Of a stretch of DNA of 49,881 nt, positions 39,901-49,881 are shown piece after piece. The DNA comes from Alphaproteobacteria bacterium (lineage in GTDB: Bacteria > Pseudomonadota > Alphaproteobacteria > Micropepsales > Micropepsaceae), in assembly GCA_947474645.1 (NCBI GenBank), contig CANJJD010000018.1, positions 1 through 49,881 on the forward strand, read 5' to 3'. How positions within the stretch are numbered: the stretch's first letter is position 1; the number at the start of each line of letters is the position of its first letter. The notes beneath the pieces were generated by a model. That model made no database searches. It was not told the DNA's origin and saw nothing but the letters and a program-made list of their open reading frames with translations. The position numbers and the translations under genes were made by a program.

Positions 39901-40087
39901 GCGTTCCCCTTTGTTCTGAGGACTTAGAACAGGGTCCGGCGACGCGCAACCGGGCGCTTATCGCCGCGAATTTGGCCATAATCAGAAGCGAGATCTCATG
40001 AAATCGCTCGTCAGGTTCCTCGAGCGCATGATTCGAATCGTTCCAACTTCACAAAGTATTTCGACGGCGGTTTCGTGTTGACCGCAA

Positions 40088-40195
40088 CGCGTTTCGGGCG
40101 CACGCTTTGTGTGCTGAGAAAAAGGATTGCGTTGACGCAGTTACGTCCTTGAAGCGCCCAACGCGCGGTGATGCGAAAGCATCGGAAGCCGCGCC
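40088..40195 (+). other. Stem-rich intergenic segment upstream of the structured RNA
   Basis: On the plus strand CGCGTT-tc-GGGCGC (40088-40101) is complementary to GCGCCCAACGCG (40154-40165), 12 pairs with a 2-base bulge. It encloses a small TGCG-ttga-CGCA hairpin. Next GCGCGG (40163-40168) pairs with CCGCGC (40189-40194) around GATGC-GAAA-GCATC. The stems partly share bases, so they may be alternatives. Function unknown; it could be the 5' part of the RNA that follows or its guide/leader. Confidence 0.4.
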
Positions 40196-40223
40196 ATCTG
40201 GTGGAGACCGGATGTCATGGTGC

Positions 40224-40486
40224 CCGGACTGTAGCGCGAGACTCTTCCTCGATCCCGGCAGGTGAAACCCGCTAACAGGAGGGTCCTGAATGGAAGATAC
40301 TCCGCCGGAAAGTAAGCCGGGCTTCGCCTGATGCGGAGCCAAGGCCCGGATCAAAAACCCGGACCTCCGCCACAAAATTGAAACTGAACAATGGGCGAAA
40401 GCCCATATCAAACAGTCCGGCCTGATGTCGGATACAAGAGTAAAACAGGTCCTGTCGGTAATCCGGCTGGGCCTGTTTTCTTTTGG
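40224..40486 (+). ncRNA. Candidate structured RNA, HEARO/OMEGA-RNA-like (tentative), ending in a terminator
   Basis: A gene-free interval with nested pairing. CCGGACTGT (40224-40232) pairs perfectly with ACAGTCCGG (40412-40420), closing a ~180-nt domain. Inside, GGAGGGTCC (40278-40286) pairs with GGACCTCC (40361-40368) with one bulged G. GGCTTCGC (40320-40327) pairs with GCGGAGCC (40333-40340). ATGGGC-GAAA-GCCCAT (40391-40406) is a GNRA hairpin. A terminator follows. The unpaired tract GTGAAACCCGCTAAC, the ACTGTAGC after the first strand and the TGAACA before the GNRA hairpin recall HEARO RNAs, which are the guide RNAs of IscB/IsrB elements. That likeness is from memory. No IscB or IsrB gene is present, so it would be an orphan copy. 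Other large RNA classes remain possible. Confidence 0.5.
40442..40486 (+). terminator. Rho-independent terminator of the structured RNA
   Basis: AAAACAGGTCC (40442-40452) pairs with GGGCCTGTTTT (40469-40479) through 11 pairs including one T-G wobble, followed by CTTTT. It ends about 115 bases before the lipoprotein start on the same strand. It indicates that a transcript from the plus strand is meant to stop here, independent of the following gene. Confidence 0.75.
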
Positions 40487-40599
40487 ATAATCACATTTGT
40501 TCCGTTCCTTTTGTAATGTGTGCGGCGATTTTCGCGTTGCAATAATTTGAAGGATAAATAGGGTTTGCCGTGGGCAGGGGCTGATTTAATGAGTCCCTC

Positions 40600-41244
40600 A
40601 TGTCCAAGACTCCCGTCCTCTCTGTCGTCCTGTTGTGCGCCGCCCTGATGGCGGGTTGCACGACCGCCCGCTCCACCGCGCCATTGCGCACCGCCAGCGA
40701 GCAGCTTCTGATTTCCGCCGCCGCCGACCGCGCCGCCTCACAATTGTCACTGGCGATCCCCAAGGGCACGCGGATATTCGTGGATACCCGCTTTTTCCAG
40801 GGCTATGACGAGGGCTATTCCATCGCGGCCATCCGCGCCCAGATGCTCAAAAGCGGCTTGATGTTGATGGATGACCGCGCCCAGGCCGAAGCGGTGGTGA
40901 TGGTGTCGTCCGGGGCGCTCTCGACCGACCAGAAATCGCTGCTGATCGGCCTGCCGCAGCTCACAGTGCCCTATATCCCGGTGGGCAATTCGGTGACGGT
41001 GCCGGAAATAGCGCTGTTCAAGCAGGCCGAGGAAAAGGGCGTCGCCAAATTCGTAGCCACCGGTTACGACGCCAAGACCGGCAAGCTCTTGGCCACCACC
41101 AATCCGCGCTATGGCTTTGCCCACAATACCAATCAAACGGTGCTGCTGTTTTTCTCCTGGGCGACGGGCGACGTTGTCCCGCCGGGGGTGGACCAGAAGG
41201 CGCTGTCGTTCCAGACCCTGACAAGCATGCTTCCCGGGAATTGA
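40600..41244 (+). CDS. Predicted lipoprotein, unknown function
   Basis: A 214-residue protein with a lipoprotein signal peptide (LMAGC, Cys20). The mature part has a mixed alpha/beta pattern with an RIFVDTRFFQGYDEGYSIAAIRAQM segment, GYDAKTGKLLATTNPRYGFAHNT and VLLFFSWATGDVVPPGVD. It resembles a recently defined family of proteobacterial lipoproteins (from memory DUF6655), whose role is unknown. It probably sits at the outer membrane. Its TGA overlaps a TTG-started relic of an arabinofuranosidase. Confidence 0.8.
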   Translation: MSKTPVLSVVLLCAALMAGCTTARSTAPLRTASEQLLISAAADRAASQLSLAIPKGTRIFVDTRFFQGYDEGYSIAAIRAQMLKSGLMLMDDRAQAEAVVMVSSGALSTDQKSLLIGLPQLTVPYIPVGNSVTVPEIALFKQAEEKGVAKFVATGYDAKTGKLLATTNPRYGFAHNTNQTVLLFFSWATGDVVPPGVDQKALSFQTLTSMLPGN

Positions 41245-45078: not shown

Positions 45079-45462
45079 ATGAATTTTATTGAAGACCAGA
45101 CAGCACAGAAACTTCGCGGGGGCTATTACACACCAGACGACCTGGCAGGTTTTCTCGCGGCGTGGGTAAACGAGATCTCCCCTCAAAATTTGCTCGAGCC
45201 GAGTTGTGGAGATGGGGTCTTCATTAAGGCGCTCGCTCAGTCGGGGATTGATCGCAGAGCTAAGATCACATGCTTTGAACTAGATAAGACCGAGGCATCT
45301 AAGGCTAAGAGCAGTGCGTCTTCTAGTTCTCTCAAAAATGTAGATGTTCGTGCGGAAGATTTCCTTGGCTGGGCCGAAAAAGCACTGGACCATAAAAATA
45401 AGAAGATGGCGTTTGACGCGGTTGTGGGTAATCCGCCCTTCGTGCGGTATCAATATGCTTGA
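45079..45462 (+). pseudogene. N-terminal fragment of an N6-adenine DNA methyltransferase (Eco57I-like)
   Basis: A 127-codon frame with GGYYTPDDLAGFLAAWV, SAM motif I LLEPSCGDGVF (38-48) and catalytic motif IV VVGNPPFVRYQY (115-126). It stops one residue later. Full-length relatives run several hundred residues further with a target-recognition region. The remaining sequence to the next gene does not continue the family. The enzyme is therefore truncated and almost certainly inactive as a methyltransferase, probably trimmed when the element lost cargo. Relatives occur in phage-like restriction or defence modules. Confidence 0.75.
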
Positions 45463-49744: not shown

Positions 49745-49881
49745 AAACATGAGAGTTTGATCCTGGCTCAGAACGAACGCTGGCGGCAGGCCTCAAACAT
49801 GCAAGTCTAGGGGGTGTAGCAATACATCACCGGCGGACGGGTGCGTAACACGTGGGAATATACCTTTTGGTTCGGAACAAC
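49745..49881 (+). rRNA. 16S ribosomal RNA, 5' part (cut by window)
   Basis: It contains AGAGTTTGATCCTGGCTCAG (from 49752), ACGAACGCTGGCGGCAGGC, ATGCAAGTC and GGCGGACGGGTG, all conserved at the 5' end of bacterial 16S. The start at ~49745 is placed seven bases before AGAGTTTGATC as in E. coli. The pattern is alphaproteobacterial. The gene continues beyond the window. Confidence 0.97.

Follow-up and report, generated by a model that had tools for sequence, protein, structure and literature searches.

A structured RNA of Alphaproteobacteria with a conserved diproline mini-ORF, a candidate regulator read by the ribosome

MgtL of Salmonella is a proline-rich regulatory leader peptide, encoded in cis before mgtA. 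The dual-function sRNAs SgrS/SgrT and Spot 42 also encode a very short peptide. In the description given in PMC10117765, rnTrpL/peTrpL of Sinorhizobium is a dual-function attenuator RNA that is leaderless and has an ORF of 14 codons. Here we describe a structured RNA in a gap between genes, predicted at about positions 40113-40487 of the window, the whole 49,881-nucleotide stretch of DNA that was analysed. The RNA is apparently of an undescribed kind and is patchily distributed in Alphaproteobacteria.

The RNA shares with MgtL a short ORF with start-proximal proline codons in a structured RNA, an arrangement in which the speed of the ribosome can choose the fold. However, MgtL is located before mgtA in cis, whereas the RNA described here has no constant downstream gene and carries its own terminator. 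Like rnTrpL, it is an alphaproteobacterial small RNA with a very short ORF, but rnTrpL is leaderless and corresponds to the trp attenuator, whereas this RNA has a leader, a Shine-Dalgarno sequence and a Pro-Pro pair, and stands alone. The likeness to SgrS/SgrT and Spot 42 is that of a regulatory RNA encoding a very short peptide; it differs from them in that it has no Rfam match, only the first residues of its peptide are constant, and the fold around the ORF is conserved. To our knowledge, the known proline-responsive ORFs are located in cis before the gene that they control. With a free-standing one, if true, bacteria would be using a separate RNA to signal the state of their diproline translation throughout the cell.

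Transcription signals and conserved fold

The strand carrying the RNA folds better between positions 40190 and 40490 than dinucleotide-shuffled sequences do (z = -5.36), with none of 100 shuffles being as good. There is a single copy in the genome from which the window comes. At the gathering score, no Rfam 15 family matches the RNA in the window or the 17 loci from other families. Seven sub-threshold matches to Rfam 15 were obtained at E<=10 for positions 39980-40600, the best of which, with an E-value of 0.11, aligns the model of a plasmid antisense RNA with the terminator. No title or abstract describing the RNA was found in the literature searched, a search outside which most subscription papers and preprints lay. 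Several other identities were considered and rejected. The RNA is not 6S RNA, as the 6S RNA of the genome sits elsewhere, on contig 15. A plasmid or phage origin was discarded, as searches of 72,556 plasmid and 50,697 phage records at E<=0.01 returned no matching DNA. The long antisense ORF at 40049-40411 (120 aa) was also discarded: its frame is broken across 13 close relatives, in most of which every frame of the region contains one to five stops.

Table 1. Features of the RNA and its flanks (positions are those of the window)
Feature	Position	Strand	Sequence	Remark
Promoter-like site	40078-40106	+	TTGACC, 17 nt, CACGCT	Hexamers at 40078-40083 and 40101-40106; GGCG just before the second
5' leader	40113-40276	+		Conserved in close relatives; predicted to start about 7 nt past the -10-like hexamer
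Leader hairpin	40196-40213	+	ATCTGGT-GGAG-ACCGGAT	Nearly invariant in 13 aligned close relatives
Closing stem of the initial annotation	40224-40232/40412-40420	+	CCGGACTGT/ACAGTCCGG	9 bp
Shine-Dalgarno sequence	40277-40282	+	AGGAGG	Purine-rich, upstream of the mini-ORF
Nested stem	40278-40286/40361-40368	+	GGAGG(G)TCC/GGACCTCC	
Mini-ORF	40290-40331	+	ATG GAA GAT ACT CCG CCG GAA AGT AAG CCG GGC TTC GCC TGA	
PPX motif	40302-40310	+	CCG CCG GAA	Pro-Pro-Glu
Helix P2	40306-40309/40366-40369	+	CGGA/TCCG	Closes H1 and H2
Hairpin H1	40320-40327/40333-40340	+	GGCTTCGC/GCGGAGCC	12 nt past the first base of codon X
Hairpin H2	40343-40365	+	GGCCCGG/CCGGACC	One C-A mismatch
Unpaired A-rich motif	40372-40382	+	ACAAAATTGAA	ACAAUY type in other members
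Hairpin H3 (GNRA)	40391-40406	+	ATGGGC-GAAA-GCCCAT	
Hairpin H4	40415-40433	+	GTCCGGC-CTGAT-GTCGGAT	96.7% paired in 13 sequences
Intrinsic terminator	40442-40486	+	TTTTCTTTT after the stem	Stem 40442-40458/40463-40479, one internal mismatch; T tail

The flanking signals (Table 1) suggest that the RNA is a separate transcription unit spanning approximately 40113-40487; the initial annotation had placed its start at 40205, and the RNA probably begins earlier, near 40113. Homologous loci, hereafter members, were compared for the same signals. In the 66 members for which 200 nt or more of upstream sequence was available, TTGAC is present at most 300 nt upstream in 62 (shuffled mean 12.4), TTGAC-N11-14-GGCG in 32 (0.37 in shuffles) and TTGAC-N18-[CT]A..[ACG]T in 21 (0.14 in shuffles). 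Downstream, 60 of 68 members have a terminator-like element, as opposed to 19-25 in shuffles; these promoter and terminator counts are not independent, because the members are related. The terminator stem is conserved in the 13 close relatives, with 198 of 208 alignment cells paired and double changes in 9 of 16 pairs. A simple consensus scan of the plus strand listed neither the promoter-like site nor the terminator of the window, and the promoter-like site was missed because CACGCT is far from TATAAT. The combination of GGCG with an unusual -10 hexamer (CACGAT, CAGCAT or CACGCT) is common at the promoter-like sites of the members and may mark a particular regulator or sigma factor. In contrast, the rRNA promoter-like site near the end of the window reads TTGACT-N17-TATAAC. 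With its own promoter-like and terminator-like signals and its intergenic position, the RNA has the sequence attributes by which a candidate dual-function sRNA is recognized.

Pairing was evaluated in three alignments. In a plain MAFFT alignment of the window and 12 close relatives (A6), for which the structures tested come from the window sequence, the structure presented here has 96.8% of cells paired and double changes in 7 of 38 pairs, compared with 1.0 in shuffles. In the 46 model-aligned sequences (A3), 94.9% of the cells are paired, and in the 41 class-wide sequences (A5) 93.0%, with double changes in 22 and 23 of 28 pairs versus shuffled means of 15.9 and 16.4, respectively, and these pair counts lean to the model structure because the two alignments were fitted to the model. 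The covariation score is 0.468 for the 46 sequences (0.187 shuffled) and 0.521 for the 41 sequences (0.184 in shuffles, none of 500 as high), and the covariation in the 41 sequences is lost when the pairing partners are slid.

The elements of the fold differ in their conservation. Among the 41 members, double changes occur in six of the seven modelled pairs of hairpin H1, in all five of H3 and in six of seven of H4, and both modelled pairs of H2 covary; in the 13 close relatives, the six counted pairs of H2 are 100% paired, one with a double change. The loop of H1 holds the stop codon of the mini-ORF (TGA, 40329-40331). The 5' side of helix P2 lies within the second proline codon and the following codon X. 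The helix is 96.2% paired in the 13 close relatives, with no double change there, and an A-U to C-G exchange is found in 3 of 15 sequences; class-wide it is weaker, with 82.9% of cells paired and double changes in two of four pairs (41 members). Downstream of the mini-ORF, the A-rich motif recurs as ACAAUY in 30 of 68 members (on average 3.7 and at most 11 in shuffles), the copy in the window being the variant ACAAAATT.

The Shine-Dalgarno sequence has two pairing options, a local one of GGAG with CTCC 40300-40303 and a distal one of GGAGG with CCTCC 40364-40368, which are paired in 84.6% and 90.4% of the cells of the close relatives, respectively; the second part of the local hairpin that holds the Shine-Dalgarno sequence is 97.4% paired. 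The CCUCC at 40364-40368 is kept in close relatives and replaced by other sequence in distant members, and a constitutive sequestration of the Shine-Dalgarno sequence by CCUCC was rejected for this reason. Taken as a whole, the comparison of members shows a new RNA family, which combines a conserved fold with a putatively translated mini-ORF.

The initial annotation had interpreted the region as a HEARO/OMEGA guide-RNA scaffold without its IscB/IsrB gene. All the elements that it listed are present in the sequence; their conservation in the alignment of the window and 12 relatives is uneven. The hairpin at 40320/40333 (98.1% paired, double changes in two of eight pairs) and the GNRA hairpin (100% paired, two of six pairs) are well kept in the 13 sequences, as is the nested GGAGG/CCUCC stem, which lacks double changes. 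The 9-bp closing stem is poorly conserved: 72.6% of its cells are paired, two inner pairs fail to form in 8 and 7 of the 13 sequences, and for each of two pairs a double change is seen in a single sequence. Its 3' arm overlaps the better-kept hairpin H4, and the stem was dismissed as being outdone by this competitor. Overall, the structure proposed there is 89.1% paired, with double changes in 6 of 31 pairs, compared with 2.0 in shuffles, 2 of 500 of which were as high.

The GNRA-type hairpin within a multi-stem RNA is a likeness to HEARO/OMEGA RNAs, and the initial annotation had likened some short strings to them as well. However, the gap described as gene-free contains, at 40290-40331, a conserved 13-codon ORF with its own Shine-Dalgarno sequence inside the supposed scaffold. 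The Rfam HEARO model has no match at E<=10 in positions 39980-40600, and none at the gathering score in the window or in 17 loci of other families. No nuclease partner was found: Pfam RRXRR (PF14239), which we take to be the IscB/IsrB domain, has no match in the genome of the window and likewise none in any of the 14 control genomes, so that this absence is weak. Because of the missing Rfam match and the poor conservation of the closing stem beside the supposed guide, we conclude that the RNA is no HEARO/OMEGA guide RNA; that assignment is almost certainly wrong. The fallback offered at the same time, an undescribed RNA class, gains support, as homologues covary, no frame is open across the region in 13 close relatives, and Rfam 15 gives no confident match to an unrelated RNA family.

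The mini-ORF and the hairpin that follows it

The mini-ORF of the window encodes MEDTPPESKPGFA*, a product of 13 codons. It was compared in 68 members, comprising 45 from the family of the window, 13 found outside it by covariance models, and 10 found by a sequence pattern. All 68 keep Pro-Pro in frame, a count that is partly the result of selection, because weak matches without such an ORF were dropped as chance and ten members were chosen by the pattern. The constant part can be written as AUG-(1-6 codons)-Pro-Pro-[Gly/Glu/Asp/Ala], and the AUG lies 2-7 codons ahead of the first proline. The total length varies from 7 to 44 codons and the C-terminus differs between lineages, some of which retain C-terminal residues such as ...WYR* or ...PGxR*.

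The third codon position is the most variable one in all nine codons from 3 to 11 in 44 of the 45 family members, the remaining one having been left out for its differing AUG-to-Pro distance. In the same 44 members, the first and second bases of the two proline codons are invariant and the third bases vary. Across the 68 members, the first proline codon is CCA in 44, CCG in 19, CCC in three, and CCT in two, and the second is CCG in 54, CCT in 11, and CCC in three. Codon X of the 58 members not found by pattern specifies Gly (29), Glu (13), Asp (8), Ala (7) or Ser (1). The residue before Pro-Pro is threonine in 61 of 68 members, or 51 of the 58. As far as sequence variation can tell, the comparison shows the mini-ORF to be translated, and the in-frame Pro-Pro-X gives it the sequence of a candidate ORF for stalling that depends on elongation factor P (EF-P).

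The convincing members outside the family have a Shine-Dalgarno sequence, an AUG, Pro-Pro-[Gly/Asp] and a hairpin shortly after. Distant members found through their structure begin MNPPD, MEPPG, MQELPPG, MTPPD, MDTPPG or MTPPGHF, and keep Pro-Pro with varying codons and spacing. Two members (L132 and L133) probably start with GUG. The distant members L102 and L117 have lost the local Shine-Dalgarno hairpin and retain the AUG and in-frame Pro-Pro. Tandem pairs of Pro-Pro mini-ORFs are found in three members (L144, L158 and L159). In L158 and L159, the Shine-Dalgarno sequence of the second ORF, whose X is Lys or Ile, lies within the first ORF. One genome (G324) has two near-identical mini-ORF RNAs on different contigs (L140 and L166), both encoding MTPPGQQAPT*. 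At 7-44 codons, the mini-ORFs fall below the minimum length used in most annotation, and such genes have probably gone unannotated.

In the local fold, the first stem after codon X starts 12 nt away in 21 members and 13 nt away in 18 of the 68. These 39 include 28 of the 45 family members and 11 of the 13 model-found outside members, the latter not being independent for the spacing of H1, which is partly built into the models. Of the ten pattern-found members, none shows the stem at 12-13 nt for its matched ORF (14 in two, 16 in one, and elsewhere in seven); for the second ORFs of L158 and L159, the hairpin was located by eye at 12 and 13 nt. When measured from the best single hairpin, the distance is 12-13 nt in 25 and 9-11 nt in 20 of 68 members, the latter because extra pairs draw H1 outward, and is flat in shuffles, a control that covered this measure only.

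With the second proline in the P site, a stem 12-13 nt from X starts 15-16 nt from the point where the P-site codon begins. The boundary of a stalled ribosome against RNase R is given as 17 nt from the P site in PMC6238534. As described in PMC4140641, ribosomes lacking EF-P pause at PPG while Gly-tRNA occupies the A site and the P site contains peptidyl-tRNA-Pro. In this geometric model, a ribosome delayed at the proline pair would touch the next hairpin in many members. According to PMC4176338, threonine before prolines in a PPP context (TPPP) leads to weak stalls; by analogy, the threonine before Pro-Pro speaks against a strong stall, but would not speak against a tunable one. In the literature considered, stalling after so few residues is not reported, apart from the entries for trmL and yjhB in the table of PMC4140641, which lie slightly further in.

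Distribution in Alphaproteobacteria

Copies are present in 44 of the 96 genomes of the family of the window. A covariance model built from 15 sequences (R1, from alignment A2) matched 43 of these genomes in three of seven genera at E<=0.01, at 46 places, one of which (L103) was dropped; in the 44th genome the copy is truncated where the contig ends. In the other 52 genomes, the RNA was undetected with this model. BLAST of the 96 genomes yielded matches in 18 other genomes at E<=5e-4, including one (L020) without the motif, which was judged to be due to chance. Two genomes of the same genus as the window, G069 (L035 and L097) and G054 (L045 and L099), have two diverged copies each.

Covariance models rebuilt with divergent members (R2 from A3, R3 from A5) were applied to a class sample of 385 genomes, in which G301, G303, G458, G256, G279 and G407 hold convincing members outside the family. 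The later class-wide search matched 11 outside-family genomes, of which five were retained, and missed G256, which had been found in the earlier one. At most seven candidates per genome were scored in these searches, so that the distribution is a lower bound and the class-wide spread is understated. Copies occur in 8 of 41 genomes in the family of G279; in that of G301 the only convincing copy among 24 genomes is from G301 itself, and in that of G458 two of 21 genomes were matched, one convincingly, again G458 itself.

The pattern of a Shine-Dalgarno sequence, AUG and ACTCC-N-CC-N-GR was found at 30 places in 27 of the 385 genomes, and once in the reversed control. The AUG is in frame at 20 of the 30 places, compared with 12 expected from the allowed gap lengths, and the in-frame places comprise 16 ORFs of 7-20 codons, three of them from the genus of the window, and four long ORFs. 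The four long ORFs and the ten out-of-frame places were dropped. The members outside the family of the window come from eleven families (f15, f34, f35, f56, f66, f81, f91, f102, f104, f123 and f128). The RNA would be a family matched by nothing in Rfam 15 and present in at least 12 alphaproteobacterial families of the sample.

Several weak matches were discarded, and the E-values of the covariance models are rough. L103 (E 0.0019), L122 (0.02 in the earlier and 0.003 in the later search), L127-L129 (0.04-0.05) and L130 (0.011) were judged to be due to chance partly for their lack of Shine-Dalgarno, AUG and Pro-Pro, a reasoning that is circular for those matches. L125 (E 5e-5), in a lysine/alanine-rich and coding-like stretch, and L126 (E 0.0017), also coding-like, were dropped as chance, again partly for this lack. 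Another genome (G134) has a 24-nt match with an E-value of 0.008.

A proposed reading of the RNA by the ribosome and competing explanations

The family couples a start-proximal pair of proline codons to a conserved RNA structure. We propose, at a probability of roughly 0.4, that ribosomes read this RNA of about 370 nt, which would act as a stand-alone regulator. Ribosomes would load at the strong Shine-Dalgarno sequence, form three to eight peptide bonds, and slow at Pro-Pro-X, a tripeptide of the class needing EF-P, when the second proline occupies the P site and X the A site. The leading edge of the paused ribosome would stand at the foot of H1, and the second proline codon and X would be barred from helix P2. 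If the pause were relieved, by active EF-P and charged tRNA, the ribosome would open H1, reach the stop codon in or beyond it, and leave, after which the RNA would refold. EF-P or the supply of proline would set the pause, and the pause would in turn alter P2 and H1. It is proposed that pausing or passage at Pro-Pro-X leads to a choice between RNA states, which may be two shapes, or a protected and a degraded RNA. The 3' part of the RNA, with the A-rich ACAAUY tract, H3 and H4, may act in trans on a target; EF-P-sensitive pausing would then switch a trans-acting RNA that reports the capacity of the cell to translate proline pairs. The fuller form of the idea is a 'minigene' that serves as a stand-alone sensor of diproline translation, in which a ribosome stalled at H1 switches the trans-acting fold according to EF-P activity, with two mini-ORFs in series in some lineages; this we offer more tentatively, as a possibility with the odds against it. 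Points against the proposed reading are the threonine before Pro-Pro, the few residues that precede the proline pair, the H1 spacing that is partly built into the models and not seen in the pattern-found members, the Lys and Ile that follow Pro-Pro in the second ORFs of L158 and L159, the weaker class-wide pairing of P2, the genomes of the family in which the RNA was undetected, and the single convincing copies in the families of G301 and G458.

Of the rival explanations, we regard the following two as unlikely. The RNA could be a small mRNA with the micropeptide as its product and structures that only protect or tune the message, which would agree with the coding constraint on the ORF, the strong Shine-Dalgarno sequence, the tandem ORFs and the C-terminal residues kept in some lineages. 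However, the ORF varies widely in length and, between lineages, in its C-terminus, the covariation is located in the RNA around and after it, and the seven residues of MTPPGHF offer little for a protein function. In a base-pairing sRNA the Shine-Dalgarno and AUG region would be only an RNA element, sequestered for example by CUCC, and translation would be incidental; the possible pairing of the Shine-Dalgarno sequence with CUCC within the ORF (and with the downstream CCUCC in close relatives), the A-rich unpaired tract and the promoter and terminator signals of the RNA are compatible with this. It is opposed by the period-3 variation in the mini-ORF and by the two distant members that have no local Shine-Dalgarno hairpin yet keep the AUG and in-frame Pro-Pro.

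The series of a leader-peptide-like ORF, hairpins and a terminator would also suit a cis-acting leader, or attenuator, of a downstream gene, with termination as the regulated step, and the next gene of the window (40600-41244) is on the same strand as the RNA. Within the family the same holds for 9 of 17 loci, and outside it for 9 of 19; however, in the other 8 and 10, or 18 of 36, the next gene runs on the opposite strand, as called by a crude ORF caller. In three of the 19 outside loci (L173, L176 and L184), the first ORF called is possibly spurious, because it adjoins the RNA or overlaps with it. The same-strand neighbours, named by eye, differ by group and include an MFS transporter, an acetyltransferase, a gyrB-like gene and others, so that no constant same-strand gene was found. 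Because the downstream genes vary in strand and identity, the RNA is not the leader of one particular gene, and a cis-leader of the gene at 40600 was rejected as the neighbours differ between loci. We consider an attenuator improbable, and the stand-alone RNA read by the ribosome remains our preferred interpretation.

Two related small secreted proteins are encoded downstream of the RNA in two genomes of family f56. Elsewhere in the window, positions 45079-45462 hold an ORF that, by eye, resembles an N-terminal piece of an adenine-specific DNA methylase and ends early, and the 5' end of a 16S rRNA gene occupies positions 49745-49881, at the end of the contig.
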